Positions 14,658-32,740 of a stretch of 64,000 nt of DNA are shown one piece after another. The stretch comes from Sulfurimonas aquatica (GTDB lineage Bacteria; Campylobacterota; Campylobacteria; Campylobacterales; Sulfurimonadaceae): the NCBI RefSeq assembly GCF_017357825.1, contig NZ_CP046072.1, positions 868,001-932,000 of the forward strand, in the 5' to 3' direction. Made by a program: the position numbers and the translations under genes. Below the pieces are notes generated by a model. That model was not told where the DNA came from and searched no databases. It saw nothing but the letters and a program-made list of their open reading frames with translations. Position 1 is the stretch's first letter, and every line of letters starts with the position of its first letter.

Positions 14658-14676
14658 CCCTATTGGATAAATAGGG
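14658..14676. terminator. Hairpin after the OmpA-domain gene
   Basis: CCCTATT (14658-14664) and AATAGGG (14670-14676) form a seven-pair stem around a GGATA loop, nine bases after the OmpA stop. It also overlaps the stop codon of the displaced DUF445 3' end on the minus strand, so it was probably the shared terminator of the two convergent genes before integration. Confidence 0.5.
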
Positions 14677-14719
14677 AGCTCACTAATCCAATAAGTCCAC
14701 CAAAGACTAAACCCCCTAC
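14660..14719 (-). pseudogene. Displaced 3' end of the DUF445 gene (left attachment site)
   Basis: On the minus strand this stretch reads VGGLVFGGLIGLVSSLFIQ then TAG. The intact DUF445 gene at the other end of the element finishes VVWGGVFGGLIGLVSSFFI. About 30 of 42 bases match, with most differences in third codon positions, and the longest exact run is CCACCAAA (14697-14704). This is what integration into the 3' end of a gene leaves: the host's own tail on one side and an element-supplied tail on the other. Joining this tail to the DUF445 body restores a normal gene. Confidence 0.8.
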
Positions 14720-14720
14720 A

Positions 14721-14812: not shown

Positions 14813-14830
14813 TATGCTATTATCATCCTA

Positions 14831-14917
14831 TTTGTTGTAAAACTTTGTTGTAAAAAATACTTATAGTAGGTATTTACAAGGGATAAATAATATTACAACA
14901 TTTTATTTGTTGTAAAA
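14831..14917 (+). repeat. TTTGTTGTAAAA repeats at the left end (putative integrase arm sites)
   Basis: Direct copies start at 14831, 14844 and 14906. An inverted partial copy, TTACAACA, lies around 14893-14900 and forms a hairpin with the last direct copy. The first two are 13 bp apart, the same spacing as the pair at the right end. They lie between the attachment core and the integrase gene, where arm-type sites and an integrase promoter operator are expected. Confidence 0.55.
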
Positions 14918-15347: not shown

Positions 15348-16532
15348 ATGGGTTTTAGAAAGATAAGAGCTAAGAAATATAGTGGAATTTATGAGTATTT
15401 CAAAGACAGTGATAAAGATAAAAAAACTATAGCTTTTTATATTTCATATCGTGACCTTGATAATAAAGTTAAAAAAAATAGATGTGATGCTACAAGCAAA
15501 GAAGATGCTTTACAAATTTTAAATGATAAAAGAACAGAATTAACAAGAGATAGAAACGAAATACAAAAAGATGCTTCACTCCTACACCAAAAAGTAATGA
15601 ATAAAAATTTAACGCTTGAAGATATTTCGAAACTTTATTTTCCTACTAAAACAGCTAAAACAATTAAAATGATTAGTGCAGGGTATTACAGTCATATTAA
15701 TCCTATATTGGGAAAGATAAAAATAACTAAGATTAAAACTACTGATATAAAAAATCTCAGTGATGTACTTAAAGAGAAAAAATCAAGACATGGAACACCA
15801 CTCAATCCAAGAACGGTAAAAAAACAAATTGCTAACTTAAGAGCCTTGTTTAATTGGGCAGTAAAAGAAAACTATGTTGATAAAAACCCTGTTGTTATAA
15901 AAGAAATCATTAAAGTGGATGCCAATGAAGCAGGACGGGTTTTATCAGATGAAGAACTTGAAAAACTATGGAACTTAGATGAGTTTCAACTAAAACCTAG
16001 ATTATTATTGTTTTTAAAAGCTTGTTACCATACAGGAGCTAGACCGTCAGCCGTTATGGACATACAAGTAAAGCATATTAACTTTGATAAAGGAGCGATA
16101 CATATTAGAGCCATGAAGCAAGGAAAACCCTACGATGCTAGAGTAAGTAAAGAGTTATTAGATTTACTTCATGAGTGGATACTAAAACATAACTTAGTAC
16201 ATGATAACTTCATTTTTTTCCCAATGCAGCTATATAAGAGATCTACAACTGACAAAGAACGAAAGTCTATTAAAAATAGTTCAACAAGATACTCAGGTTA
16301 TGCAGAACTACTAAGAAAAATATTTGATAAATACTTTAATCAAAATATAGGAACTTATGATCATGCTTATAGAGTGACTGTTTATACTATGAGGCGAACA
16401 AGTGCAACAAATGTTTATAAAAAATTTGGAATAGTTCATGCAAAAAAGTTTCTAAATCATACCGAGATTAATACCACGATGAAATATCTAAATATTGATG
16501 ATGATATGGAGGTAATTGATTATGGGCTTTAA
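15348..16532 (+). CDS. int: Tyrosine recombinase (site-specific integrase)
   Basis: A 394-residue phage-type integrase that would insert and excise the element at the DUF445 3' end. It has an N-terminal arm-binding region, a SAM-like core-binding domain (about 90-190) and a catalytic domain. Catalytic residues: Arg232 in HTGARPSAV, a lysine in the MKQGK loop (257-260), Arg349 in YTMRRTSAT, His371 in LNHTEIN and the nucleophile Tyr380 in MKYLNI. The position normally holding the first histidine of HxxR is Tyr346 here. AAAGG precedes the ATG. The gene lies about 640 bp from the left core. The next gene overlaps it by 11 bp. Confidence 0.93.
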   Translation: MGFRKIRAKKYSGIYEYFKDSDKDKKTIAFYISYRDLDNKVKKNRCDATSKEDALQILNDKRTELTRDRNEIQKDASLLHQKVMNKNLTLEDISKLYFPTKTAKTIKMISAGYYSHINPILGKIKITKIKTTDIKNLSDVLKEKKSRHGTPLNPRTVKKQIANLRALFNWAVKENYVDKNPVVIKEIIKVDANEAGRVLSDEELEKLWNLDEFQLKPRLLLFLKACYHTGARPSAVMDIQVKHINFDKGAIHIRAMKQGKPYDARVSKELLDLLHEWILKHNLVHDNFIFFPMQLYKRSTTDKERKSIKNSSTRYSGYAELLRKIFDKYFNQNIGTYDHAYRVTVYTMRRTSATNVYKKFGIVHAKKFLNHTEINTTMKYLNIDDDMEVIDYGL

Positions 16533-18839: not shown

Positions 18840-19214
18840 ATGTCAAAGCAAGTAACTGAAAAACAACAAAAGTTCTGTGAAGAATTTATGCTTACAAGAA
18901 ATCTTACAAAGTCTGCTCTAGGTGCAGGATACTCTAATACTTTCGCACTTAAAAAATCATATCAACTTATGAATGACCAGAAGATACTTAAGAGGATTGA
19001 AGAGTTGGAAAAAGAGTATTTCACCAACCACTTTAAAACACTTGGTATTAAAGCTGTTGAAGAGTTGATGGTAATCATAAACAGTGGTACTTCAAGTGAG
19101 AAACTTCGTGCCATTGAAATTGCCTTAAAGCTCAATGGTTTTACTCAAGGTATTTCCATAGAAGCCAATACGAATGATATATCTATAAAAGTGAAGTTGC
19201 CAGATGGAATATGA
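18840..19214 (+). CDS. terS: Phage terminase small subunit
   Basis: A 124-residue protein matching the Terminase_2 family. The N-terminus VTEKQQKFCEEFML, then TKSALGAGYS, forms the DNA-binding HTH, and KLRAIEIALKLNG lies in the oligomerisation part. In phages it recognises the packaging site and hands DNA to the large subunit. The stop overlaps the large-subunit gene by 11 bp. In a satellite such a gene would redirect a helper phage's heads to package the element. Confidence 0.85.
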   Translation: MSKQVTEKQQKFCEEFMLTRNLTKSALGAGYSNTFALKKSYQLMNDQKILKRIEELEKEYFTNHFKTLGIKAVEELMVIINSGTSSEKLRAIEIALKLNGFTQGISIEANTNDISIKVKLPDGI

Positions 19215-20460
19215 TATAGATTTATCTAGTGCTAGTGATTTTATGAATAAAAAAGCATATGATATGCTTCATATTTTGGCATCTAGATACATCATTAGTT
19301 ATGGTGGTGCAGGCTCAGGTAAAAGCTATGGAATTACACAATATATTTTGATTATGATCTTAACTTTAGAAGGGCATAGATTTTTAATAGCAAGAAAATA
19401 TGCAACATCTCTGAAACGTTCAGTCTTTCAACTCTTTTTAGATTTAATTTTAGAATGGGGACTATCAGATCTTTTTAAAACCAATCTTACTGATATGACA
19501 ATCACTTGTCTCAATGGTAATAAGATAATGTTTGTCGGCCTAGATGACGTGGAGAAGCTGAAGTCAATAGCAGGTGTTACAGGCATATGGATTGAAGAAG
19601 CCACAGAAGTTACAGTAGAAGATTTTATGCAACTTGATCTTCGTCTTAGAGGTAATACTAAACATCATCTGCAGATTTTACTTTCATTCAATCCTACTTC
19701 ATCTAGATCATGGCTTAAAAAGAGATTCTTTGATAAAAAAGATGATAATGTTCATATTATCCATACTACATATAAAGACAACAAGTTTATTGATGAGCAC
19801 TACAAACAGACACTTGAAAATTTAATAAATCAAGATGATAACTTTCATAAAATCTATGCCTTAGGTAAATGGGGTACCCTGAAAGGACGTATATTTGAAG
19901 AGTATAAGACAATTGATATATTGCCAGAAGATTATCAATTACGTAAGTATGGTTTAGATTTTGGATTTAATGCTCCGATGGCTCTCATTGAGATACGAGA
20001 AGACAATAATAACCTTTATCTATATGAGTGTTACTACAGAACAAAGACTACAACTGATGAGTTAATACAGTATATGAAACAAGAAGGTATATCAACCCGT
20101 GATTCTATTTATTGTGATAGTGCTGAACCTGACCGTATAGAGACGCTTAAAAATGCTGGGTTTAATGCAATAGCAGCAAAGAAGAATGTAAGAGCTGGTA
20201 TTGATGCTGTTAAGTCTAAAAGTCTACATGTATCTAAACAAAGTACTAATCTAATAAAAGAATTTGATAACTATAGCTGGAAAGAAGATAAGGATGGCAA
20301 TAGCTTAGAAGAACCAGTTAAGTTCAATGACCATCTTATGGATGCATTGAGGTATGCTGTATTTACTACAGAGAGACACGCTCGTCAAATTATTGTTAGT
20401 CCAAGAAGAAAGACACGCTTTGCAGGATATGGAGACTATAGTGGATTTAAAGGATTTTAA
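19204..20460 (+). CDS. terL: Phage terminase large subunit (PBSX type)
   Basis: A 418-residue packaging motor. The ATPase part has Walker A SYGGAGSGKS near residue 37 and Walker B GIWIEEATE. The nuclease part has LDFGFNAPMAL, CDSAEPDRIETL and the terminal FNDHLMDALRYAV, which carry the RNase H-like acidic residues. Length and all key motifs are intact, so it appears functional. It overlaps the small subunit. A portal gene normally comes next, but only about 560 bp without a convincing gene follow. Confidence 0.92.
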   Translation: MEYDIDLSSASDFMNKKAYDMLHILASRYIISYGGAGSGKSYGITQYILIMILTLEGHRFLIARKYATSLKRSVFQLFLDLILEWGLSDLFKTNLTDMTITCLNGNKIMFVGLDDVEKLKSIAGVTGIWIEEATEVTVEDFMQLDLRLRGNTKHHLQILLSFNPTSSRSWLKKRFFDKKDDNVHIIHTTYKDNKFIDEHYKQTLENLINQDDNFHKIYALGKWGTLKGRIFEEYKTIDILPEDYQLRKYGLDFGFNAPMALIEIREDNNNLYLYECYYRTKTTTDELIQYMKQEGISTRDSIYCDSAEPDRIETLKNAGFNAIAAKKNVRAGIDAVKSKSLHVSKQSTNLIKEFDNYSWKEDKDGNSLEEPVKFNDHLMDALRYAVFTTERHARQIIVSPRRKTRFAGYGDYSGFKGF

Positions 20461-21024
20461 ATTAGCCATCTTATACACAATTAAATACATAGGCAAAACA
20501 ATACAATAATATTAGGACTATTAAATAATGCTAGAGTTAAGTTAGAGCATTGCAGATGATATTGTCACCGGCAGACCTAAAATAGGCATCCAAGATTATT
20601 GTTAAGTCCTGTTTTTGGATTTATCTCACATAGTCCAAAAGATACCTGTCCATTTTAGGTCCGCTAGTAACACTCAGATAGAAGTATTTGAATGTGTACT
20701 AAATGGATACATGAAAGAACCCACTAAAGAGAATAGAAGTTTAAACGATACAGTCAAGTTGTTAAGAGGCGAGTGCATGTATGCAATAATAAGGTATACA
20801 AGAAGCAGATAGAGAATATATATGGTCATTTTAATATCGTATTATGTAACTAAATATAATATTAAATAAAATTATAATACTTAAAAGAACTAATTACATT
20901 ATTTTAAGTTTATGATTTGTTTTAAAAAGATAATATATGTTAATTGAAGTAATAATGTTATTTCTGCTAATAGTTTAAAATAAAGGATAAACCATGAAAA
21001 TATCAAAAGTATTAAGTAGCGATA
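20461..21024 (+). other. Gap with possible decayed coding remnants after terL
   Basis: No convincing intact gene. Short frames occur, for example one reading IADDIVTGRPKIGIQDYC before a stop (around 20550-20605), and a 65-codon TTG frame at 20615-20812 without a ribosome binding site. Both could be debris of a portal or other head gene. The last 200 bp are very AT-rich. At 20984-21015, AAAGGA is followed by a six-codon frame (MKYQKY, stop) just before the next gene. Confidence 0.35.
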
Positions 21025-21339
21025 ATGAGTAAAAAATTAATTACAATAATATCTATATTTATTCTTTCAATAGTATTTCTATCTCAGATTACTTTGTTTG
21101 TTATTCAACCAATGGGAGCAATACCAAAGGGCAAAACATTGGTAATATGGAAATTAAACAAGACTAATTTTATAGATAGTGCAGATGCAATGTGTGTAAG
21201 AGAAACTGGCAGTTTAAATATATTATGTAGAGGTATGATGATGTCCGCAGTAATAAGTAAAAGTTCTGTACTTATGAAATTACCTTATAGTAGCTCACTA
21301 TATAGCATATCAACAGGTGGAAAGGAGTATAGCAGGTAA
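21025..21339 (+). CDS. Small membrane-anchored protein of unknown function
   Basis: A 104-residue protein with one N-terminal hydrophobic helix (LITIISIFILSIVFLSQITLFVI), then a polar part with two cysteines (AMCVRETGSLNILCRG). The helix may anchor the rest outside the cytoplasm. No family is recognised. It has no ribosome binding site of its own; a tiny six-codon frame with a good one ends ten bases upstream, so translation may depend on that. Its stop overlaps the next ATG (TAATG). Confidence 0.5.
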   Translation: MSKKLITIISIFILSIVFLSQITLFVIQPMGAIPKGKTLVIWKLNKTNFIDSADAMCVRETGSLNILCRGMMMSAVISKSSVLMKLPYSSSLYSISTGGKEYSR

Positions 21340-21617
21340 TGGAAATAATTTTTTATGGAATGATATTAGGAGTAATACCAGCAATGATAGCTCAATCTAA
21401 AGGTCGTTCTTTTTTACTATGGTGGTTTTATGGAGCAATGATTTTTATAATAGCACTCCCCCATTCACTACTTATATCTAAAGACCAAAAATCAATAGAT
21501 GAGCAGTCATTATCAGAAGGTATGAAAAAGTGTCCTTATTGTGCTGAACTTATTAGAAAAGAAGCAACTATATGTAGATATTGTCAAAAAGAACAAACAA
21601 CTAAAGAGGAAATATAA
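21339..21617 (+). CDS. Membrane protein with C-terminal zinc ribbon
   Basis: A 92-residue protein with two hydrophobic segments (IIFYGMILGVIPAMIA and LLWWFYGAMIFIIALP) followed by a zinc-ribbon motif, KKCPYCAELIRKEATICRYC (CxxC-x11-CxxC). Small proteins of this layout are common in prophages and islands; their roles are unknown. Translationally coupled to the genes on both sides (TAATG before, TAA followed directly by ATG after), so it belongs to a small membrane-protein operon. Confidence 0.65.
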   Translation: MEIIFYGMILGVIPAMIAQSKGRSFLLWWFYGAMIFIIALPHSLLISKDQKSIDEQSLSEGMKKCPYCAELIRKEATICRYCQKEQTTKEEI

Positions 21618-22005
21618 ATGAAAAACAGATTCTTAATATTAGCATTAGTAGTACCAATGTTATTAATAGCAGGAAATGCTAAGGATAGAAATAGACAATA
21701 ATGAAAAGTATAATTCGACAGGCTCCTCTTATGTTGATTATGAAGAGATTAGTTCACTAATAAAAGGATTGAAATATATTGAGTCTATTACAAAAAATCC
21801 CACAAAACTTAAGAATTATGAAGCAATATATAAAACAAATGGTGAACTTGAGATAACAAATTTCAATTCCAGTAGTGGAAACTTAGTTGCAGTTCAAGCA
21901 GGTAGATATAGTGGTAAATCTATATATCTAGAATTAAGTCAAGTCAAAGAGTTAAAAGCAATTCTTAGTGAAGCATATACAAAAATAAAATCAATGAAAA
22001 AATAA
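21618..22005 (+). pseudogene. Exported protein gene with an apparent frameshift
   Basis: AGAGGA lies seven bases before an ATG at 21618 that encodes a clean signal peptide (MKNRFLILALVVPMLLIAG) but runs into TAA at 21699-21701. A frame shifted relative to it, open from 21676 to 22005, encodes 109 residues (for example STGSSYVDYEEISSLIKGLKY split over two strands, and YSGKSIYLELSQVKEL). That frame has no ribosome binding site of its own. The simplest reading is one secreted protein of about 125 residues broken by a small indel near 21680-21700. A sequencing error would look the same. No family is recognised. Confidence 0.5.
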
Positions 22006-22093
22006 ACGTGTTTCATGGAAACATCATAATTTAGATTGTTTATGTAAGAATAAATTAGTAATAAAATGTAAATAACTTAGAAAAGGTTCTTTT

Positions 22094-22487
22094 GTGTTGA
22101 AAATTAGTAAGGTCGAATTAGTTATATTCTTAATTTCGTTGGTTGTGACTACAATTTTTTATTTTAGTAATCAGAATATGGCTTCTTTTCTTATTATTCC
22201 TCTTGCATTTGTTGCTACATGGATTTATATGATGCCAACAGTAATAGCTGAAAAGAGAGCATCCAAGCCTTTTTCTTATAGGAGTGCTGAATTTTTTATT
22301 AGGATTTACACTTTTAGTATGGGTAGCTTGTTTTATATGGGCTTCTACAAATAGAAATGAGGAATCGAATAATTCAATAAGAATAAATATTGCAGAAGAA
22401 ATTGAAAAATTAGATGTATTAAGAAAAAAAGGATTACTAACGGATGAAGAATTTAAGCAACAGAAATTGAAAATATTAAACTCTTAA
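22094..22487 (+). pseudogene. Superinfection-immunity-type membrane protein with SHOCT domain, frameshifted
   Basis: The 5' frame (GTG at 22094, AAAAGG seven bases before) encodes two hydrophobic helices and PTVIAEKRASKPF. The other frame then continues LIGVLNFLLGFTLLVWVACF and, after a linker, a SHOCT-like end (EEIEKLDVLRKKGLLTDEEF). Together these fit the superinfection-immunity membrane family (PF14373-like), whose phage T4 member Imm blocks DNA injection. Removing one T from the five-T run at 22270-22274 joins the frames. So it is a one-base frameshift: mutation, slippage control or sequencing error. Confidence 0.65.
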
Positions 22488-22816
22488 TAGCCTCTTTAAG
22501 CTTCTAAAATAAAAGTCAAGAGAACTTGCATTATGTTAACCACTAAATCCCTATAAAAGCCACTTTAAGGTTTAAATTTCAATAATTAGTATTCTATGTG
22601 TTATTCTTAAGAGGGTAAAAAAGGATAAAACCCTAAATATAGGGATTTGCTACTTTAAGAAATAAAGTTTTTGTGAGTTTAAGTTTTACTGCTCCTTTAT
22701 GGACTTTACTTCCATACATTGTAGCTCAAAATTAATATTAACCTTTTATATTAAAAAAGCTATTTGTAAGTAAATATGTAATACTGTTATATAAAATTAA
22801 CTTACAATGGACAAAC
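22488..22816. other. Gene-free stretch with an inverted repeat
   Basis: No coding frame is convincing. AAATCCCTATA (22545-22555) recurs inverted as TATAGGGATTT (22638-22648), and the local hairpin CCCTA-AATA-TAGGG lies at 22631-22644. Both copies are followed on the plus strand by a C(C/T)ACTTTAAG sequence. It may form a structured RNA or be a regulator site. Confidence 0.35.
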
Positions 22817-23497
22817 ATGATATACAAGAAACTAAATTTTATAATACCTGTAGTAATAGCATCAGGATTAATGTTGTCTGGGTGTAACTCAGGACCAAAA
22901 CCTACATTAGTGCATATACCTTCATTGAAAACTATATCAAAAGCTGAGATTGGACAGAATATGTTTGAAAGTATTTATGCTGTTTATAAGCATGAAAATG
23001 AGGTGAAATTCTTAGATAACATAGACAAAAGTAAATATACATATGATAGTGATAGATATACATTTTATATGAAAAAAATAGATAATCAATGTGTAATGAT
23101 TAGAGAGAATGGTCGTACCCATCTATATGATAAAAATTGTGATGGTGTATTTACTCATGGAAATAATGATTTATTTAGTGATGGAAAACTTGATAAGGAA
23201 GTGAGATATACAACTGTTCCAGCTAAACCTAGTAGTATACTACCAAGTTCATGGAAATATGATGTCTTGTATCAAGGTAAAATTGAAAACAAGCTGAACA
23301 TAACATTTCGTGAATACTATTACTCACCTACAGTTCGTAATTTTATGATACGAGATTCGTTTACACAAAATATACAGTATGAACTTAATGAAAATGGTAA
23401 GGCAATGATTGGTTTTAAAGGCTTGAGAATCAAAGTACTAAAAGCAACAAATTTGGATATTGAATATCAAGTAATTAAAGATTATGACAAGATATAG
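22817..23497 (+). CDS. Putative lipoprotein of unknown function
   Basis: A 226-residue protein with a lipoprotein signal ending LMLSGC (lipidated Cys near residue 23). The mature part is charged and probably mostly beta, with NQCVMIRENGRTHLYDKNCD giving a possible disulfide pair. No family is recognised. The next lipoprotein gene starts ten bases after its stop, so the pair are co-transcribed. Codon use is as AT-rich as the rest of the element. Confidence 0.6.
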   Translation: MIYKKLNFIIPVVIASGLMLSGCNSGPKPTLVHIPSLKTISKAEIGQNMFESIYAVYKHENEVKFLDNIDKSKYTYDSDRYTFYMKKIDNQCVMIRENGRTHLYDKNCDGVFTHGNNDLFSDGKLDKEVRYTTVPAKPSSILPSSWKYDVLYQGKIENKLNITFREYYYSPTVRNFMIRDSFTQNIQYELNENGKAMIGFKGLRIKVLKATNLDIEYQVIKDYDKI

Positions 23498-23507
23498 AAG
23501 GAAGATT

Positions 23508-24089
23508 ATGACAAAGTTATTATTAATAGCCTTACTAATGGTCAGTTTATTACTTACTGCTTGTGGTGGTGGAGATTCTACTACTGGTACAAATACTTCA
23601 GACTATCTGATAGTAGCTGGGAATACTAAAGGTTTTGAAATGAAATCAAATGGTAAAGTTTTATCAGGTGGTACAGGTTGCATTAGTGCTAGGATATATG
23701 ATAGTAATGCTAATAGCCTTGCTCTAAGTAATAAAGTCGTAGACCTCACTCCAGGAACATATACTGCTGTATTTACTTCAAGGAGTAGTACATCACCAAA
23801 TTCAATTGGTGCATTATATACAACTGAATCTACTTTTCAGGTTCCAGCTGTAATTTATAATAACCTTTATTCAATCACTGCAGGTACTACACAACTATAC
23901 AAACTTACCATATCACAAACTACATCTTTTGCAATGAGTAGAACACAAACAGCTTCAAGTTTATATGATGAAAATTTAAACTACATCACCACTTCAGATA
24001 CATTTACATTAAATACAGGAACTTATTATTTATTAGCATATTCAATTAACTGTGGCGTTGCAGGTAGTTTCAATATGGCTGAACTTTAA
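23508..24089 (+). CDS. Putative secreted lipoprotein, Ser/Thr-rich
   Basis: A 193-residue protein. The ATG at 23508 is chosen because AGAAGGA lies just upstream and it opens a textbook lipoprotein signal (LLIALLMVSLLLTACGGG); an earlier frame start at 23484 lacks both. The mature part is rich in Ser, Thr and Gly with repeated LYxL and TxxTFT-like strands, suggesting a beta-sandwich. No family is recognised. It is the second gene of a lipoprotein pair. Confidence 0.6.
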   Translation: MTKLLLIALLMVSLLLTACGGGDSTTGTNTSDYLIVAGNTKGFEMKSNGKVLSGGTGCISARIYDSNANSLALSNKVVDLTPGTYTAVFTSRSSTSPNSIGALYTTESTFQVPAVIYNNLYSITAGTTQLYKLTISQTTSFAMSRTQTASSLYDENLNYITTSDTFTLNTGTYYLLAYSINCGVAGSFNMAEL

Positions 24090-24169
24090 CATCTAAATAC
24101 ATGAGATAGTTACAAGGCTAGAGAAGATAAAGGCTCAAAAAGAGTACCAAGTAACCAAGGGATAATGAA

Positions 24170-25195
24170 ATGATATTAGATGGTCTATATCTATATAGAT
24201 ATGCTAACAGTGATAGAATTGAATTAAATGGGATTCACAGTAAAGAATCAATTATTGAACTGATGGTAGACGAATGGATTTACTATATGGAATGTCATAA
24301 ATGCGGTAAATCAGACTATTGTAAATACACGGAACCACATAATGTTAACCCTGATAAAAAAGCTGAAATTAAATGTGGAGTTGCAAAAGATTTTATTACT
24401 AATTATATAAATAACACTTTTGATAGTATCGAAGATTTAGAGATTGAACAAAAGCAAGCTTATTTAGATACAGCTTATTACTTATCTCAATATGTACAAA
24501 GTGCAGAAATAGGTATTGGTACTTTGATAAATGAAGATTATTTAAGTGTATGGGGAGAGTTTGCACCTGCACTGTATGGTTTTACTAAAGAGCCATTAGA
24601 TTATTTAAACAAAGCTCATAAAGAAATGAAGCATGTAGGAATGTTTAGAAGTAAAAAGAGTTTGATATTAGTTGAAGGCTATAGTGAAAATATTTTTGTA
24701 GATAATTTTTCTGACATCAAGGTAGTGAATTATGAAGGAGAAGGTAGAATAAGATACGACAAGATAGAATTTTTAGTGCAAGAATATCAAGAAGATGGTT
24801 ACGAAGTTTATTTACAATCTGATATGGATGGAAAACCACATAATGACAAAGTAAACAAAATAATTAATGGAGGATTAATAAAAGAAGAAAATATATTTCA
24901 ATTTAAACACGACTTTGAATCCTCCATTCCAGCAAAACTTTTTTATACAATACTAATAGATAACGAATTGATTAGTGATACATTTGAAAACTTTGAAGAA
25001 GGTATAGATTTACAACGAGGTATAGTTCATTATGTTGAGACGAAATATGATATTAGTATTAATAAAAGAATGATAGCAACTGAAGTTAGTTTAGCAATAC
25101 ATAAATATTCTAGAAGAAGAAACCTATATCAAGATGAAAGGTTTTTAGATACTGAAATAGGAAAGTTTTGGAATTTTATAAGGAAAGTAAACTAA
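24170..25195 (+). CDS. Stand-alone TOPRIM-domain protein, OLD-nuclease-like
   Basis: A 341-residue protein. The first 160 residues are helical with four cysteines (42, 45, 51, 69) that could bind zinc or an iron-sulfur centre. From 163 the pattern KSLILVEGYSENIFVDNF gives the catalytic glutamate (Glu169) of an OLD-type TOPRIM. SDMDG (Asp218, Asp220) gives the metal-binding DxD, and KHDFESSIP gives the downstream acidic strand. OLD-family TOPRIMs are nucleases usually fused to an ABC-type ATPase; no such ATPase is present here. AAGG lies nine bases before the ATG. A thermonuclease gene begins directly after its stop, and a PD-(D/E)XK-like gene follows that. Confidence 0.65.
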   Translation: MILDGLYLYRYANSDRIELNGIHSKESIIELMVDEWIYYMECHKCGKSDYCKYTEPHNVNPDKKAEIKCGVAKDFITNYINNTFDSIEDLEIEQKQAYLDTAYYLSQYVQSAEIGIGTLINEDYLSVWGEFAPALYGFTKEPLDYLNKAHKEMKHVGMFRSKKSLILVEGYSENIFVDNFSDIKVVNYEGEGRIRYDKIEFLVQEYQEDGYEVYLQSDMDGKPHNDKVNKIINGGLIKEENIFQFKHDFESSIPAKLFYTILIDNELISDTFENFEEGIDLQRGIVHYVETKYDISINKRMIATEVSLAIHKYSRRRNLYQDERFLDTEIGKFWNFIRKVN

Positions 25196-25687
25196 GTGAA
25201 ATTATTACTACCTATTCTAATCTCAGTCAGTCTGAATGCAGATATAGGGGTACTAAAAAAAGTAGTTGATGGTGATACTCTTAACTTCACAAATGATAAA
25301 TGCAGACTACTTTATATTGACACTCCTGAAAGTAAGAGAAACAAGAAAGCTAAGCTAGATACAAAGCAATGTAAAAACTTTACATTAGATACTATGGTTA
25401 GAATAGGCAAGCAATCAACAGAACATGCTCAAACACTTGTTGAGGTTGGTAAGTCATATAAGTATGAAGTGATTGGTAAAGATAGGTATAATCGTTCTCT
25501 ATGTGTTGTATACACTCCCATAGGTATATTTAACGAGTTGATGGTTAGAGATGGTTATGCAATGCCTTATGAGAGCTATATGCCAAGTAAACTAAAAAGT
25601 AAATACCACAAATTATCTAGAGAGGCTAAGCGACTTAATCGTGGACTATGGAAGTCTTATGATATTGATTGTATAGGTAAATATTGA
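25196..25687 (+). CDS. Thermonuclease (SNase-like) family protein
   Basis: A 163-residue nuclease with a short signal peptide (KLLLPILISVSLNA), so it probably acts in the periplasm or outside. Staphylococcal-nuclease features are all present: VVDGDTL, CRLLYIDTPES with the catalytic Arg37 and Glu45, and KDRYNRSL with Arg100. The start codon is GTG immediately after the TOPRIM stop. Similar SNase proteins are common on plasmids and islands, where they may degrade incoming DNA. Confidence 0.85.
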   Translation: MKLLLPILISVSLNADIGVLKKVVDGDTLNFTNDKCRLLYIDTPESKRNKKAKLDTKQCKNFTLDTMVRIGKQSTEHAQTLVEVGKSYKYEVIGKDRYNRSLCVVYTPIGIFNELMVRDGYAMPYESYMPSKLKSKYHKLSREAKRLNRGLWKSYDIDCIGKY

Positions 25688-25690
25688 TTA

Positions 25691-27142
25691 ATGAAAAGAA
25701 TACCATACAAAAAACTTCAAAAGTATAATAGAATAAGAAAAAATACATATTCAAAACTACTTCGTAAATATTCTGTTAGACAATGGTTGACTTGTATACG
25801 ACAGATAAATATAAAAATGTATAACTATGAAATTTATGACCAAAATAGTAGACTTAAATATAAGCCAGAGTTCCTAACTGTTAATGCAGACATGGCGATT
25901 AGGGTGGCGAAAGATAATAACAATGATTTTGAACTTCCAGTACCTGGACAATGTGATTGGCTTACTAGCACAGAAATTAATCTAAGTGATGGTCCAAAAA
26001 GTTTAATTAAACTATTTGGGGTTGGTGGCATATCATTAATGGCGGTATGGCAAAACAGGCTTCTGTACAATCAATCAAATATGCTTGCTAGAATGCATGT
26101 CCTATATAAAAACTATGATAGCCAAGTTGTATCTGCTATAGGTATATCAATTAAAGATATTTATGTAATATTATTAGCTCTTTCAGTTGTATATCAAAAG
26201 AAAAAGAAGATTTATTTAAAAAAAGATGCTCTTATCCATCCTGAAATAGAAAGCCTAAGTAAAGATAAAATAATAAAATTTTTAGCTTATTTTTCAAGAA
26301 CATCAGTTCAGTATAAAGCAGAGGCAAAACAAGAGAAAATATATGAAAACAGCTTTGGTAAGTTCAAGTATCTTATTAGATATCCAATTATAGAGCTAGA
26401 GGAAGATTTATATATAGTCCCCGTCTTTGAACAACTCCTTGATACTCTATCTAATAACTTGTATTTTTTATTATTGGAACATTTTCACAATATTAGTAAA
26501 AAGTCATCAAAGAAGTTTCTTGATAATTTTGGCAATATCTTAGAAAAATATGTTTTAGATTTGGCAGGAGATGTATTTGAAGCAAAAAATATAATTAGAG
26601 CCGACGATATTGTACCAAATGCTAATGAATTAAGATGTGAAGTTGTAGCATATGATAATAATAAGGCATTAGCTATAGAAGTTAAAAAAATGAACTTTAA
26701 ACGAGATGCTATAATTGATATAGATAAAATTCATATTGATGATGTGTTAGAAAAACACTTAGTAAAAGCTTTCAAGCAAATTGAGAATACACTGAATTAT
26801 GTAGATAAAGAAGTGCAGTACGGAATTATTGTAGTTCCTGATATTATGTTGAGTCTCTCAAGTATGATTGATTATATGAAGGTTCGCTTTAAAGGCACAG
26901 CAAAGTTTGATGATGGAATATTTATCTGTACATTATCATGGTATGAAGCTTTAATGGCTAATAAAGTCGACATTGTTTTTGATATATTAAATAAAGCCTT
27001 TGAGCGAGAGTTTCATGAAGGCAATGATATTATAATGGTAATGGATGATATGAAACAAAAAGGGTATAACATAAAAACACTCAATGAGAATTTAACAAAC
27101 AGCACTTTAGATATATTAAAAACAATTGAAAAGAAATATTAA
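25691..27142 (+). CDS. Large hypothetical protein with a PD-(D/E)XK-like nuclease motif
   Basis: A 483-residue cytoplasmic protein that I cannot place in a named family. The C-terminal third has GNILEKYVLDLAGDVF (Glu285), then CEVVAYDNNKALAIEVKK with Glu317, Glu330 and Lys332. That order matches a PD-(D/E)XK nuclease core, as in NERD and Mrr-like proteins. The N-terminal two thirds are helical and could recognise a target. The start lies three bases after the thermonuclease stop, so three nuclease-like genes run together. Restriction or another anti-phage role is a reasonable guess but unproven. Confidence 0.55.
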   Translation: MKRIPYKKLQKYNRIRKNTYSKLLRKYSVRQWLTCIRQINIKMYNYEIYDQNSRLKYKPEFLTVNADMAIRVAKDNNNDFELPVPGQCDWLTSTEINLSDGPKSLIKLFGVGGISLMAVWQNRLLYNQSNMLARMHVLYKNYDSQVVSAIGISIKDIYVILLALSVVYQKKKKIYLKKDALIHPEIESLSKDKIIKFLAYFSRTSVQYKAEAKQEKIYENSFGKFKYLIRYPIIELEEDLYIVPVFEQLLDTLSNNLYFLLLEHFHNISKKSSKKFLDNFGNILEKYVLDLAGDVFEAKNIIRADDIVPNANELRCEVVAYDNNKALAIEVKKMNFKRDAIIDIDKIHIDDVLEKHLVKAFKQIENTLNYVDKEVQYGIIVVPDIMLSLSSMIDYMKVRFKGTAKFDDGIFICTLSWYEALMANKVDIVFDILNKAFEREFHEGNDIIMVMDDMKQKGYNIKTLNENLTNSTLDILKTIEKKY

Positions 27143-27181
27143 GAGGAGCATCTCTCTATAGCTTAGTATATTTTTTAGCAC

Positions 27182-27493
27182 TTGTTCCCTGTAGTAGGTG
27201 AGTTAAATGCATATAGAAAGAACTTTAGATTTGATTTTGAAGAAGCGAGTGGTGGTCAATATGGTGAATGCAAGTTCGATGTTCTCTTTAAAGATAAAAG
27301 AGCTAGAGTAAAAGAAGAGCTTAGCGGTGTGATTGCAAGAGACTATCTATACTTCAACAAACAATATAAAATGAAACTCTCAAATCAAGAACTAAAGAAG
27401 TATCAAGCTTTGAATCACCAGTATCTTCTAAGATTATGCATTATTTACTGGAATGATAAAAAAAGTGGTGCTTTTAAAATATATTATGTATAA
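27182..27493 (+). CDS. Short open frame, probably a remnant
   Basis: A 103-codon frame opening with TTG right after an in-frame stop, without a ribosome binding site. The sequence contains ECKFDVLFKDKRARVKEEL and YNLF-free basic helices, and ends in IYYV. No family is recognised. A GAGGAG element about 30 bases upstream has no start at a suitable distance in this frame. It may be the 3' part of a decayed gene. Confidence 0.3.
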   Translation: MFPVVGELNAYRKNFRFDFEEASGGQYGECKFDVLFKDKRARVKEELSGVIARDYLYFNKQYKMKLSNQELKKYQALNHQYLLRLCIIYWNDKKSGAFKIYYV

Positions 27494-27525
27494 TTTAGAA
27501 AATTTAATGGATACAGGTATTAATA

Positions 27526-28269
27526 ATGAAATTTTTAGTTTTTTCTTTATGTCTTTTATTTCTTACTGGTTGTTTTGACAATCCAATAAAAAAAGCTGCT
27601 GAAGCTTTAAAAGTTGGTGATGTATCAAAAGCTTTTACTCTATATAAGATTGCAGCTGAAGATGGTAGTTCTAATGCACAATACGAGTTAGGGCTTATGT
27701 ATGAGAAAGGTTTACTAGGAACACCAGATTATCAAAATGCTTTTAAATGGTTTGAGCAATCTGCCAAACAGCAAGACCCTCGCGGAGAGTTCAAACTAGC
27801 TTATTATTATGAAGGTGGCATGGGAATACCAAAAAATTATAAAAAGGCAATAAAATGGTACACTCTCTCAGCAAATAAAAATTATTCCTTCGCAATATAT
27901 AATTTAGGAGTAGCTTATTATGAGGGCAGATTAATCAAGCAGGACATGCTGAAAGCACTAGATTTATGGAAGCAAGCTGCTATGTTAGGAGATGCATCTT
28001 CTCAATTTAATATTGGAGTACTGTATTCAGAGGGCAAAGTAGTCGCGAAAAGTTATAAGGAAGCAGCTGAGTGGTATAGGCTAGCAGCAGAGAAAAATTA
28101 TACTCAGGCTCAGATGAATCTAGGTTACTTGTATGATGAAGGTTTAGGAGTTCAAAAAAATAAAATTACAGCTTATAACTTATATATTAAAGCAGCAGAA
28201 AAAGGTCATCAAGGTGCTCAAAATAATTTAAACATATTATGTCGAGAAAGTTCTTGGGCATGCAAATAA
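27526..28269 (+). CDS. Sel1-repeat lipoprotein
   Basis: A 247-residue protein with a lipoprotein signal (LVFSLCLLFLTGC) and about six Sel1-like repeats of 36 residues: AQYELGLMYEKGLLG, AIYNLGVAYYEGRL, SQFNIGVLYSEGKV, AQMNLGYLYDEGLGV. Sel1 repeats are helical hairpins for protein-protein contacts. Two cysteines at the C-terminus (ILCRESSWACK) may pair, as in secreted Helicobacter Hcp-type proteins. AGG lies eight bases before the ATG. It is the last plus-strand gene before the minus-strand defence-like operon. Confidence 0.85.
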   Translation: MKFLVFSLCLLFLTGCFDNPIKKAAEALKVGDVSKAFTLYKIAAEDGSSNAQYELGLMYEKGLLGTPDYQNAFKWFEQSAKQQDPRGEFKLAYYYEGGMGIPKNYKKAIKWYTLSANKNYSFAIYNLGVAYYEGRLIKQDMLKALDLWKQAAMLGDASSQFNIGVLYSEGKVVAKSYKEAAEWYRLAAEKNYTQAQMNLGYLYDEGLGVQKNKITAYNLYIKAAEKGHQGAQNNLNILCRESSWACK

Positions 28270-28356
28270 CAAATCAAATAATTAATCAGTATACTATAAT
28301 CTTCAAAACTAAAAGGTATTAATATGTAAAAAATAGTTCTTACATTGTGATGATTT

Positions 28357-29079
28357 TCATTTATATATAATTTCTTTTAATTTATCAATATTAATAGGTG
28401 GATTTTCTTTATGAAGCATTGCATGACAATTTGGGCATACTGGTCGAAGGTCCTTTATTGGGTTTAATCTGTATTCTTTTCCAATCTCAGAAATAGGTCT
28501 TATATGATGGACATGTATAAAACCTGTTCCAATAGCACCATATGTATCTTCAAAGTTAAACAAGCATACTTGGCATTTTAAGCCATAGTATTCAATACAT
28601 TTTTCTCTTGCACTGGAGTCTCTTTCATAACGATTTACTGTAGTTTCTTTTTTTGCACCTTCGTAGTGAATTTCAGTTTCATCTATATCATCTGGGTAAA
28701 TAATAGTTGCCTGACGATTTAGCATATTGGTGTACTTATGAACTATTTGTCTACTCTTATGCATATTGGTTGGAGATTTTTTTTCATAGTACTCGATATT
28801 TAACATTACAGATTGGAGTGCATTTTTAAGTATGCTTTCACCAAAGTCCTTTAAAAAGTTTTCAAAAAAATATTCCAAAGTTTCGGCATTATTTGTTCTG
28901 GCATAATGACGACCTTCATACATACATTTAAAGTTATAAATTATATCTGATGCAGAACCTCTATTCATACCAAGTTTTTCCGCTTCAATTAATGCATTTT
29001 TTTTACTAGTTTGATTAAAGTATACACTTTTGGCAAGTTCATAAATATATGTAATTTCTTTTATTGTAATTCTTGGCAT
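28357..29079 (-). CDS. HNH endonuclease
   Basis: A 240-residue protein with a C-terminal HNH domain: CQVCLFNFED, FIHVHHIRPIS, then LRPVCPNCHAMLH. This gives the two zinc CxxC pairs and the catalytic His-His-His/Asn arrangement of McrA-like enzymes. The N-terminal 130 residues are helical and basic and may recognise DNA. Its ribosome binding site (GAGG, seven bases before ATG) lies inside the upstream 27-codon peptide frame, which ends two bases before the ATG. It is therefore the last gene of a four-gene coupled unit. Confidence 0.85.
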   Translation of the reverse strand: MPRITIKEITYIYELAKSVYFNQTSKKNALIEAEKLGMNRGSASDIIYNFKCMYEGRHYARTNNAETLEYFFENFLKDFGESILKNALQSVMLNIEYYEKKSPTNMHKSRQIVHKYTNMLNRQATIIYPDDIDETEIHYEGAKKETTVNRYERDSSAREKCIEYYGLKCQVCLFNFEDTYGAIGTGFIHVHHIRPISEIGKEYRLNPIKDLRPVCPNCHAMLHKENPPINIDKLKEIIYK

Positions 29080-29081
29080 GA

Positions 29082-29165
29082 CTAATCCTCTTTTAATTTT
29101 TCAATTAAATTATACCTAGCTAGTAGTAATGCTACAAGTGATAGGAATATTAATAGTAATTTCAT
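29082..29165 (-). CDS. 27-residue single-pass membrane peptide
   Basis: A frame of 27 codons, starting in a classic ATGA overlap with the stop of the DUF2075 gene and ending two bases before the HNH start. It encodes MKLLLIFLSLVALLLA followed by an eleven-residue charged tail. AGAAGG lies eleven bases before the ATG. The fully hydrophobic helix and the exact fit between two coupled genes argue that it is real, although it is too short for standard gene callers. Possible roles are a membrane-acting effector or toxin, or an anchor for a partner protein; none can be read from the sequence. Confidence 0.6.
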   Translation of the reverse strand: MKLLLIFLSLVALLLARYNLIEKLKED

Positions 29166-30832
29166 ATGTTTATATACCTTCTAAAGTATGCTTCAAGCTT
29201 TTTATCGTAGCAATATACATATGTTCCCTTAATAGCTCTATACATTATAGTTTTATATATATTGATAATGTAGTCGTGAAGTTGACTCTCATTGATACTA
29301 GCTTTACCATTTCTATCGTGGTAATTCTCTTTAATAACTTCTATTTGCTTAGTAGTTTCATTGTATGTAATCTCACTACCAAATATAATTCCTGAATAGT
29401 TTAAGTCATATCCTTGTGTTGTATGTATACAACCCATTTCTGTAATGTCATTAACAGAATTAATCCAATCTTCTAGTTTTCTATTCCAATAAAGGTCTAT
29501 GCCGTCAATAGTTACATCTGGTTGAGTACTTTCTTTTGAAACCCACTTCCACGAATAACCAGATATTATCCTAGTAAGACCATGCTCTTTCTCTTTTTCT
29601 TGCAAGGAGTCTAGCATAAATTTCATAGATGAAAATAACTTAAGTTCATAGTGAGGTGCATCCCACTTTACTAACTCTGATGTATTGTTTGTAAGTAGTT
29701 TATCAACAAATTCTATATAGTCACCACCACCTTCAACTCTCAACTGAGATTTTAATACAAGTACATTTGCTTGCTGTTTTATAGCATCAAATTTCTTTTT
29801 CTCTATATCCGAAGGTTTAATGGATTGCTTAGCATCATAGAAGAACAATTGATTATCACTTGATAACATTATCCAGTCTAATTCTGTACCTTCATACTTA
29901 TCAAGATTAAAATGCTTATTTGTTTTATCAAACTCTCCGTACCCAGTGATGTTCTTTCTTCTTTTTAATCGGTGTGACTCATCAACAACAAGTAAATCAT
30001 AATGAGCCTTCTTAACTTCATTGGGTCCAATAACCATACTAGGTGTTAGTCCATGTATACTTTTAAAAACTTTCTTGAGAGTCTTTCTAAGTGGTGTCAT
30101 AGGAACAACTAAAGCTATATTTAACACCTTCTTCCCGATTTTTACTTTTACTCTTTGGGCTAATTCAATAAGAGAATTAACTTCTAAGTCACTTTCTTCA
30201 TCTTCATCGACTTCACTCAATAAAAGCTTGATTAGATAAACAGCTAGTATTGTTTTTCCAGTACCAGCACTACCTTGTATGAATGTTGTATTTGTAATTT
30301 CAGGTGAGAGTAAAGTGTATAAATAACTCTTTAGAGATGTAAACTGGTCATCAGAGAGACTTTTATATGGAGAATATTTAAATAAATCAGAGTTTTGAAT
30401 ATCTAGAAGGTCATGTTTTACAAGGTTCTCGAACTGAAGGTTTTTCCATATATCTTTAAATGTATTTTCGTATTTCTCTTTTTGATAATACTGATGATTT
30501 ACTATTCCATCATTTCCGTTAAGAAGTTTATAGTGACCATCTCCAAGCATGTTCTGAATAAGGTTGGACTCTATGTCTAGTACAGATGATTTATTAAAGT
30601 AATGGCTAAATATAATCTTGATATTTTTTAGTTTCTTTTTTTCTGGATGAGCTAAATGTTGCTTGAGCCGATTAATTATATTAGTTGTTTCACCAATGTA
30701 AGCTTGTTTATCTTTTTCACTATAAATTATATACACTGTAGGAAAATTATAATACGTAGGTGCTTTATCAAGAATATTATAAGAAGCAGTGTGGTCAAAT
30801 ATAAAGTCTCTAGTTATGCACTCAAATGACAT
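29162..30832 (-). CDS. GIY-YIG domain fused to DUF2075 ATPase/helicase
   Basis: A 556-residue fusion. The N-terminus has a GIY-YIG nuclease pattern (PTVYIIYSEK, AYIGETTNIINRLKQHL, with Arg55). From about 165 follows a DUF2075-type P-loop ATPase: Walker A FIQGSAGTGKT (Lys193), Walker B LLVVDESHRLKRR (Asp284, Glu285), and C-terminal helicase-like motifs including CIHTTQGYDLNYSG and TIMYRAIKGTYVY. Such a protein could move along and cut nucleic acid. DUF2075 proteins often sit near defence genes. The ATG overlaps the MazG-like stop (TAATG). The TGA overlaps the small peptide's ATG. Confidence 0.85.
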   Translation of the reverse strand: MSFECITRDFIFDHTASYNILDKAPTYYNFPTVYIIYSEKDKQAYIGETTNIINRLKQHLAHPEKKKLKNIKIIFSHYFNKSSVLDIESNLIQNMLGDGHYKLLNGNDGIVNHQYYQKEKYENTFKDIWKNLQFENLVKHDLLDIQNSDLFKYSPYKSLSDDQFTSLKSYLYTLLSPEITNTTFIQGSAGTGKTILAVYLIKLLLSEVDEDEESDLEVNSLIELAQRVKVKIGKKVLNIALVVPMTPLRKTLKKVFKSIHGLTPSMVIGPNEVKKAHYDLLVVDESHRLKRRKNITGYGEFDKTNKHFNLDKYEGTELDWIMLSSDNQLFFYDAKQSIKPSDIEKKKFDAIKQQANVLVLKSQLRVEGGGDYIEFVDKLLTNNTSELVKWDAPHYELKLFSSMKFMLDSLQEKEKEHGLTRIISGYSWKWVSKESTQPDVTIDGIDLYWNRKLEDWINSVNDITEMGCIHTTQGYDLNYSGIIFGSEITYNETTKQIEVIKENYHDRNGKASINESQLHDYIINIYKTIMYRAIKGTYVYCYDKKLEAYFRRYINI

Positions 30833-31176
30833 TAAATATCCGTATACTTTTTAAATGAGCCTTTCACCTTATCAATAGGGTATTTCTCTTCATTCTTTTT
30901 CATCTTTTCGATAATTGCTTCTTCTAAGTCTATATCTAGCTTAGTGCATAGTTTCAATAAGTAAATGGCAATATCTGCTACCTCTTCTTTAGCATGTTGT
31001 TTTGTACCTGAAGGTAAATTATTAGATTGTTCTTCAGTTAACCATTGAAATATTTCGTTTAGTTCACCTACTTCTCCAGTTAGAGCCATTACAATATTTT
31101 TTGGTGAGTGGTATTTATTCCAATCTCGTTGTATTGAAAACTGTTCAATTTTATAATTAATCTTTTTTATATCCAT
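30832..31176 (-). CDS. MazG-like nucleotide pyrophosphohydrolase (dCTPase-like)
   Basis: A 114-residue all-helical protein of the MazG/RS21-C6 type, which hydrolyses (d)NTPs to monophosphates. Metal-binding residues are in LTGEVGELNE (Glu35, Glu38) and HAKEEVADIAIYLL (Glu64/65, Asp68). W44, in FQWLTEEQ, also fits the family. First gene of the four-gene minus-strand unit; AAAAGG lies about ten bases before the ATG. Coupled to a GIY-YIG/DUF2075 ATPase, it may lower nucleotide pools during phage infection or remove modified phage nucleotides. A house-cleaning role is the alternative. Confidence 0.85.
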   Translation of the reverse strand: MDIKKINYKIEQFSIQRDWNKYHSPKNIVMALTGEVGELNEIFQWLTEEQSNNLPSGTKQHAKEEVADIAIYLLKLCTKLDIDLEEAIIEKMKKNEEKYPIDKVKGSFKKYTDI

Positions 31177-31921: not shown

Positions 31922-31967
31922 GTGAATATTTTGCAGTTTTTGTCAATATTTAGCATATTTAGAGTGA

Positions 31968-31992
31968 TTTGTTGTAAAAATATGTTGTAAAA
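31968..31992 (+). repeat. TTTGTTGTAAAA-type repeats at the right end (putative integrase arm sites)
   Basis: TTTGTTGTAAAA at 31968-31979 and TATGTTGTAAAA at 31981-31992 are 13 bp apart, in the same orientation and at the same spacing as the pair at 14831 and 14844 inside the left end. TTTGCAGT at 31930 also has a left-end counterpart. These lie about 70-130 bp inside the right core. Confidence 0.55.
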
Positions 31993-32029
31993 TTAAATAA
32001 GTAATCTCTTTGTGCTACCTATTATAGGG

Positions 32030-32740
32030 CTATATGAAAAATGAACTAACAAGCCCAATTAGCCCACCAAAAACTCCACCCCAAACGACTAGCCACTCTA
32101 GATGTTCTTTTATGAGTTTTTGGAGAATCTCTTTTACGAGTTGTGGCGTTAGCTCGTTTAGTCTCGTGTCTATGACACTCTCAATCGACTTTAACATATC
32201 ATCATTAAGTGATGAACTTTGCATATGAGTAGCTAATGTCGCGTTAAATGCTTGCGAGTTTACTATCTTTATTACTGCAGCTTTCATCTTTAGTGAAAAT
32301 GGCTCTCGAAGATTATCTAGTGCTGCTTCTCCTCCAAACATACCGAGCATTCCACCAAATGATGACTCCATTACCGTTTTACTTAGTGCATCAAATGCAG
32401 GTGTGAAATCTGTCTCTTCTATGATAGGCTCTAGGTTTATTTTTTTCTCTTCATCTTCAAAAAAACTCTCTAACTGCTCTCGTGTAAAAAATTCACTCAT
32501 CATTAGGTTTTTTATAGCCTCTTTGAAAGCCTCGAAACGCGAGGGAATGACGCCCGAGCCATAAAGAAAAGGAACTTTTTCAAATAGCATATGAACAGCA
32601 AGTTGGTTTGTAAGGGCTCCAGAGAGTGCAAAAAGACCGCTAAAGAGTAGGGCGGAGTGTAGTTCCAAAAGAAGATATGAGAGTGCGATTAGTGCTACTG
32701 CTATGAGGTTAGTTATTAAACTTTTATTTATTTTCAACAT
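32030..32740 (-). CDS. DUF445 family membrane protein (integration target)
   Basis: A 236-residue protein with hydrophobic segments at both ends (LIAVALIALSYLLLELHSAL; LVVWGGVFGGLIGLVSSFF) and an acidic helical middle. The N-terminal GLFALSGALTNQLAVHMLFEKVPFLYG (shown in two parts: SGALTNQLAVHMLF and EKVPFLYGSG) is typical of DUF445, a family of uncharacterised inner-membrane proteins. Its last 14 or so codons were probably supplied by the integrated element, since the native 3' end is found 17.4 kb away at 14660. The encoded tail is conserved, so the protein should still work. Confidence 0.85.
   Translation of the reverse strand: MLKINKSLITNLIAVALIALSYLLLELHSALLFSGLFALSGALTNQLAVHMLFEKVPFLYGSGVIPSRFEAFKEAIKNLMMSEFFTREQLESFFEDEEKKINLEPIIEETDFTPAFDALSKTVMESSFGGMLGMFGGEAALDNLREPFSLKMKAAVIKIVNSQAFNATLATHMQSSSLNDDMLKSIESVIDTRLNELTPQLVKEILQKLIKEHLEWLVVWGGVFGGLIGLVSSFFI
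32064..32071. other. Right attachment core (CCACCAAA)
   Basis: The longest run identical between the DUF445 3' end here and its displaced copy at the left boundary. Strand exchange is most likely in or next to this octamer. The flanking identity is imperfect, so the crossover could be a few bases to either side. Confidence 0.6.

Follow-up and report, generated by a model that had tools for sequence, protein, structure and literature searches.

The TOPRIM domain of the OLD nucleases carries its acidic motifs in the order E / DxD / DxE, and GapS1 is a single-protein system. Under its other spelling, GAPS1, it is reportedly associated with Gamma-Mobile-Trio elements (Mahata et al. 2024). Here we describe a locus of Sulfurimonas aquatica in which P1, a protein with the same acidic motif order, and P3, a GapS1-like protein, stand on either side of P2, a staphylococcal nuclease (SNase). 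The locus lies in the window, the whole 64,000-nucleotide stretch that was analyzed (G000:C1:868001-932000 of the 2.85 Mb genome). OLD proteins are described as having an N-terminal ABC ATPase (PMC10568477), and the initial annotation of this locus stated that a TOPRIM of this type normally comes fused to such a domain. This is true of OLD but somewhat overstated, since AriB of PARIS is described as a separate TOPRIM protein that is held and released by the ABC ATPase AriA (PMC12409363), and Retron-Eco2 is presented as a fusion of a reverse transcriptase with TOPRIM (PMC12405507). Protection of Klebsiella against many phages has been reported for GapS1 (PMC12908700), a further paper deals with GAPS2 (PMC12935923), and a structure-based survey lists a GapS1-like gene in prophage ST437-OXA245phi4.1 (PMC12774648).

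All three genes carry nuclease signatures and form a contiguous run on the + strand at 24170-27142. No gap separates the P1 stop from the P2 start, and three bases separate P2 from P3; the coordinates and spacing given by the initial annotation were exact. The genes and their key segments are as follows:

24170 to 25195, + strand: P1, ATG start, very likely a TOPRIM protein, 341 amino acids, with an N-terminal Cys/His cluster and no ATPase domain
24293 to 24376, + strand: residues 42-69 of P1, with C42, H43, C45, C51, H57 and C69 invariant in 5/5 aligned family members, a putative metal (zinc) site
24659 to 24922, + strand: predicted TOPRIM core of P1, residues 164-251, with E169, D218, D220, D248 and E250
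25196 to 25687, + strand: P2, GTG start, SNase (thermonuclease), 163 amino acids, with a hydrophobic, signal-like N-terminus
25691 to 27142, + strand: P3, ATG start, GapS1-like protein, 483 amino acids
26531 to 26779, + strand: predicted PD-(D/E)XK core of P3, residues 281-363, with G281, E285, E317, E330-x-K332 and Q363

We read P1, P2 and P3 as neighboring cargo of an integrative element of ~17 kb, with P1 and P3 as independent one-gene defense effectors, and put the probability of this reading at roughly 0.6. To compare the locus with others, partner genes were sought by tblastn (1e-5) around independent relatives of P1 and P3, and part of these places were also checked with hidden Markov models. 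P2 or P3 was found at 0/5 other P1 places (L002, L003, L004, L005/L006 and L069, with one of two Arcobacter plasmids used as a P1 locus and L005/L006 taken as one contig), the flanks of L005 being short at ~1.7 and 1.3 kb. P1 or P2 was found at 0/9 other P3 places (L019, L020, L021, L022, L062, L065, L066, L067 and L068), of which L062 and L065 comprise 3.1 and 4.8 kb in all, and in L068 the partner search missed the diverged P3 itself. Among the genomes searched (397 drawn from the phylum and 228 of the family, with the own genome counted in every tally), only that of the window carried both P1 and P3. The initial annotation had proposed that the three genes form a second anti-DNA module, with lack of co-conservation as a refuting condition; this reading was rejected because no partner turned up at any of the 5 other P1 and 9 other P3 places searched. 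The GapS1 genes stand alone in the loci seen, a layout that fits a single-protein system. Stop codons in 2/4 of the other P3 copies of the phylum, together with one broken copy of P1, argue that both genes come and go, like defense cargo.

The sequence of P3 makes it a divergent member of the kin of the antiphage protein GapS1. Profile-profile alignment (hhalign) of the P3 family (A2) with three GapS1 references (A5) gave a probability of 92.8 (E 4e-7) over 393 columns, and a control with an unrelated pair (A1/A2) gave a probability of 0.1. A match to the NCBIfam model NF047931 (antiphage_GapS1) was common to 3/3 members of profile A2, the window protein included. The reference was gp49 of the Klebsiella prophage ST437-OXA245phi4.1, which scores 393 bits and is above the NF047931 cut-off; two relatives of gp49 (49% and 28% identity), themselves unscored against this model, were added. 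Alignment of 11 proteins, made up of eight GapS1-like proteins and the three references (the ten others being 13-51% identical to P3, with the broken L010 and L011 copies omitted), revealed 10/483 invariant P3 positions, G281, E285, K332 and Q363 included. Columns 285, 317, 330 and 419 alone were acidic throughout, and column 332 alone was Lys throughout. Columns 285, 317, 330, 332 and 363 fit, in 11/11 sequences, the series E ... D/E ... (D/E)-x-K ... Q, which we take to be the PD-(D/E)XK motif; the PD-(D/E)XK-like core with the pair E330/K332 that had been assigned to P3 from its sequence is backed by this alignment. P3 shares its acidic and Lys catalytic positions with GapS1 and, in some loci, the integrase neighbor, but differs in its 17% identity to the Klebsiella member and in having E-x-K rather than D-x-K at 330-332; at columns 317 and 330 the eight GapS1-like proteins have E and the three references D. 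The alignment picks out the catalytic residues, and with the GapS1-like proteins a known antiphage family reaches distant Campylobacterota members whose active site is an E-x-K variant. GapS1-like genes occur in 5/397 phylum and 6/228 family genomes. Those of L021 and L022 (G057 and G377) are broken by stop codons, which accounts for two of the four other phylum genomes with such a gene. No relative of P3 was found in viral contigs, phages or plasmids, and its profile found no match in the PDB; a single-sequence structural model was unusable (pLDDT, the predicted local distance difference test, 32.9) and was discarded.

P1 is very likely a TOPRIM protein, an assignment that draws on motif order, weak but correctly placed profile matches, the mad4 and OLD-like_TOPRIM models and a low-confidence structural model with a TOPRIM-like order of strands and helices over residues 164-244. 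When P1 was aligned with four relatives at 30-51% identity to it (the broken L069 copy not counted), E169-G170, D218-x-D220-G221 and D248-x-E250 were invariant in 5/5 members, which bears out the E / DxD / DxE layout claimed in the initial annotation. Invariant positions make up 63/341 of the protein and 11/59 of its acidic residues, and the random chance that the five named residues all fall among the latter is ~1e-4. The family profile found the small solved TOPRIM proteins 2i5r (E 0.018) and 2fcj (E 0.022), both correctly placed; since a thymidylate kinase matched at E 0.031, these values are not significant on their own. In PADLOC, P1 of the window matched only mad4 of the MADS system (E 0.0069, residues 162-233), and this model, 110 positions long, was matched by 4/5 family members (best E 2.9e-5); the window proteins scanned matched none of the other MADS models. 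OLD-like_TOPRIM was matched by 3/5 members, at E 0.071 or worse. Comparison of the P1 model by VIA-align returned the TOPRIM-containing entries 2fcj, 2i5r, 2gai, 6ozw, 6z2b, 6tg6, 1cy8 and others at Z 4.6-6.1, with the TOPRIM domains of topoisomerase I and RNase M5 among them, mixed with unrelated alpha/beta folds of equal or higher Z (up to 7.1).

No Pfam or NCBIfam model was matched by P1 above its cut-off, and no ATPase family in either database was matched anywhere in its 341 residues at E up to 1, in agreement with the earlier claim that P1 lacks an ATPase of its own. We also searched the surroundings for the Walker A pattern. No open reading frame (ORF) in the flanks (<=8 kb) of the 5 other P1 places contained it, but the pattern misses the variant P-loop of a DUF2326 gene ~250 bp upstream of P1 in L002, so that at least 1/5 P1 places has a P-loop gene next to P1; none was seen in the other four. 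Within the window, the Walker A pattern matched only two small ORFs and, at distances of 3.7 and 4.0 kb, the large terminase (TerL) and a Schlafen-type gene. P1 differs from the OLD-family nucleases (P2 OLD, GajA and Retron-Eco8 OLD), whose ABC ATPase domain is absent from it. AriB (DUF4435) is, like P1, a TOPRIM effector on its own polypeptide, but has the ATPase partner AriA, whereas none appears to be conserved beside P1. The small TOPRIM proteins 2fcj and 2i5r and RNase M5 are also without an ATPase and are weak fold matches to P1, the first two being weak profile matches as well; compared with the small TOPRIM proteins, P1 adds ~160 N-terminal residues with the Cys/His cluster and ~90 C-terminal residues. 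Two candidate identities were tried and rejected: hhalign of P1 with one OLD-like protein was not significant (probability 0.4), and for DUF4435/AriB there was no DUF4435 match in P1 or elsewhere in this genome (hhalign probability 0.5).

The second conserved feature of P1 is its N-terminal cluster. Exactly six of its 13 Cys and His residues are invariant (4/4 Cys and 2/9 His), all within residues 42-69, and the remaining seven His are variable in the five-member alignment. These six residues and the TOPRIM acids are kept in relatives down to 30% identity. The family member of L003 has sub-threshold matches to the IF2B/IF5 domain PF01873 (E 3.8e-5, 24 bits vs 27) and to IF-2 beta models (E 0.0014), which together with the Cys/His pattern suggests a zinc site. 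The initial annotation had described a four-cysteine helical N-terminus; the four cysteines are there, but a helical form does not apply to the cluster and fits only residues 71-153 of the weak model.

P1 was found in 2/397 phylum and 2/228 family genomes. Some of its relatives are plasmid-borne, two of them in Arcobacter (48%) and one in Pseudoalteromonas (30%); two others come from metagenome-assembled genomes (MAGs), one from an Arcobacteraceae MAG (51%) and the other from a contig of a Campylobacteraceae MAG (51%). A pattern scan of genome contigs with P1, which reaches close relatives only, yielded 2 loci from 51 pattern matches. No P1 was found in viral contigs with either the single sequence or the family profile, and the L003 relative used as a query found none in phages and, in plasmids, only itself and the two Arcobacter plasmids. 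In a genome of the same genus (G543), a P1-family gene in three pieces lies beside a Fic gene (L069:1456-2414). A literature search for a one-gene TOPRIM/zinc antiphage protein returned, by title and abstract, no description of a P1-like protein, which is not proof of absence. P1 represents a rare, small, mobile and uncharacterized TOPRIM family in which a metal-like cluster is conserved and no ATPase appears to be constant, and is the new part of the locus. The family would offer a natural test of how a TOPRIM nuclease is controlled without ATP hydrolysis. A bolder proposal is that P1 founds a new type of one-gene defense, a solitary TOPRIM nuclease without an ABC ATPase that is switched by a Cys/His metal cluster serving as infection sensor; we hold this tentatively, at well below even odds.

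P2 is an ordinary member of the staphylococcal nuclease family, with no notable difference. It matches PF00565 at 62.2 bits (cut-off 21; E 7.6e-17) and aligns with staphylococcal nuclease 2sns through its DGDT, RLLxxDTPE and DxYxR segments, so placing in P2 the D, R, D, E and R that are presumably the catalytic residues. Its N-terminus is hydrophobic and signal-like in hydropathy, so that the secreted thermonuclease named in the initial annotation is upheld in the form of a probably exported SNase. A search of 151 family genomes (E up to 1e-20) gave two relatives besides the own genome (60% and 38% identity), and the 60% relative (L014) corresponds to the C-terminal portion of a protein bearing a lipoprotein-like signal. 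Two Campylobacterota plasmids (L053 and L054) have relatives at 46-48% in their transfer regions, without P1 or P3. A total of 2703 plasmid records contained a P2 match, which marks P2 as a common mobile-element nuclease.

The surroundings of P1 and P3 relatives were also examined. A GapS1-type gene directly follows an integrase in three loci, L023 (annotated), L028 and L060/L065 (both by eye), of which L023 and L028 are Klebsiella prophages. In L019 a GapS1-like gene is close to an AbiEii gene, and the one of L020 shares its stretch with DUF4238, an integrase-like gene and a HipA-like gene that is below threshold. Some P1 relatives have defense-type neighbors: they are near an AbiGi gene in L004, near SMEK, DUF2326 (PADLOC PDC-M68B), PDC-S31 and HEPN_Toprim_N in L002, and, as a broken copy, beside Fic in L069. 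The Klebsiella prophage of L023 also contains a gene at 26579-27655 with a weak GapS4b match (E 6.8e-6, below cut-off).

The carrier of the three genes is defined by the following features:

15348 to 16532, + strand: tyrosine integrase of the carrier element
14660 to 14720, - strand: approximate left border, a copy of the target gene 3' end, in translation GGLVFGGLIGLVSSLFIQ* beside GGVFGGLIGLVSSFFI*
31967 to 31992, + strand: direct repeat of 26 nt, 92% identical with 14830-14855, near the right border (31930-32090)
27182 to 27493, + strand: Endonuclease I remnant just after P3, matching PF04231 (E 1.9e-8) over profile positions 100-181 of 235

The 3'-end copy, the 26-nt repeat and the integrase at 15348 point to an integrative element of ~17 kb whose insertion site is apparently the 3' end of the conserved gene at 32030-32740, which is present in 85/100 genus genomes at E up to 1e-40. 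The element contains small and large terminase genes (18840-20460), and no capsid protein was identified among ten proteins scanned against PHROGs; from this combination it would be a satellite or a prophage remnant. For TerL, a search of 151 family genomes (E up to 1e-20) gave two relatives at 29% identity besides the own genome. Residues 1-81 of the Endonuclease I remnant are 70% identical to a plasmid endonuclease of Sulfurimonas paralvinellae, and the gene is probably truncated.

Several results weigh against independent defense roles for P1 and P3. The sole family match of P3, to NF047931, reaches 57.4 bits (E 1.1e-15) against a cut-off of 320 bits, and we name the protein GapS1-like rather than GapS1 for this reason; PADLOC, Pfam and PHROGs contained no match to P3. 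By BLASTP its similarity to the Klebsiella GapS1 is weak (E 0.004), and given both scores the trigger or substrate of P3 may differ from that of GapS1. The predicted P1 model is poor (mean pLDDT 45.5), and in Foldseek manxA chains ranked best among its PDB matches (E 0.009) and the TOPRIM protein 2fcj sixth (E 0.15). The manxA likeness, at a TM score of 0.2, was not believed. In L003, P1 lies amid metabolic and transposase genes. PADLOC matched 6/10 neighbor genes of P1 and P3 relatives in one set and 0/10 in a second; as the genes were picked by hand, these counts are no measure of enrichment. Co-transcription of P1, P2 and P3, which abut on one strand, is also probable and fits with joint use here; no + strand terminator was found in 20400-28400, in a promoter and terminator scan that was overall at chance level.

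Reasoning by analogy, we would expect P3 to be inactive in the cytoplasm until its N-terminal part senses a phage product; once triggered, its PD-(D/E)XK site would cut nucleic acid, and the infection would be stopped in the affected cell. For P1, the most likely role is that of another one-gene effector, independent of P3. The Cys/His cluster of P1 would bind metal, probably zinc, and may, together with the helical middle, position or sense the target, while the TOPRIM site (E169, D218, D220, D248 and E250) would cut nucleic acid using two metal ions and no ATPase partner. P2 would be an exported SNase outside the cytoplasm, probably acting on incoming or free DNA.

Among the other explanations, the one that fares best removes P1 from defense and sees it as a TOPRIM enzyme of RNA processing or regulation, similar to RNase M5, or as the toxin of a toxin-antitoxin locus with an unrecognized antitoxin. 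The RNase M5 TOPRIM domains among the VIA-align matches (Z 5.2-5.7) are in line with the enzyme. Small toxin-antitoxin-like genes (by eye) near P1 relatives in L004 and L006, the latter with DUF4160 as the next gene after P1, are in line with the toxin. However, a housekeeping role is a poor fit with the patchy distribution of P1 (2/397 and 2/228 genomes), its plasmid or island location and its decay in G543, and no small partner gene recurs in the P1 loci read; we consider this explanation unlikely, though it retains some weight.

A less probable alternative, to which we assign only a small chance, is that the run serves the element itself, with P2 and the former Endonuclease I blocking natural transformation and so preventing loss of the element, and P1 and P3 guarding against rival phages. 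Campylobacter integrated elements carry DNase genes, for which a parallel role has been proposed, and Campylobacter prophages with dns are reported to show extracellular DNase activity and non-transformability (PMC10893306). The presence of an SNase that is probably exported, with a remnant of Endonuclease I close by, matches this arrangement, and blocking of transformation would be a plausible role, by analogy, for P2 and the lost endonuclease. On the other side, the Endonuclease I gene looks truncated, and the SNase belongs to a different family from Endonuclease I, in which we place the Campylobacter dns.

Least probable is the view that the three genes are co-expressed as one anti-DNA module acting together on incoming DNA, for which their close spacing on one strand, the lack of a detected terminator and the nuclease signatures in all three speak, and against which stand the missing partners at every other P1 and P3 place searched, the P2 relatives in plasmid transfer regions, and the apparent export of P2, which would then not act in the same compartment as P1 and P3.

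Besides the cargo described above, the window encodes at 29162-31176 a fusion of GIY-YIG with a Schlafen group 3 helicase (PF09848, E 6.8e-58), the GIY-YIG part of which matches PADLOC PDC-S14; this stretch is perhaps another defense locus. A small gene adjoining the fusion has a weak nucleoside triphosphate pyrophosphohydrolase match.

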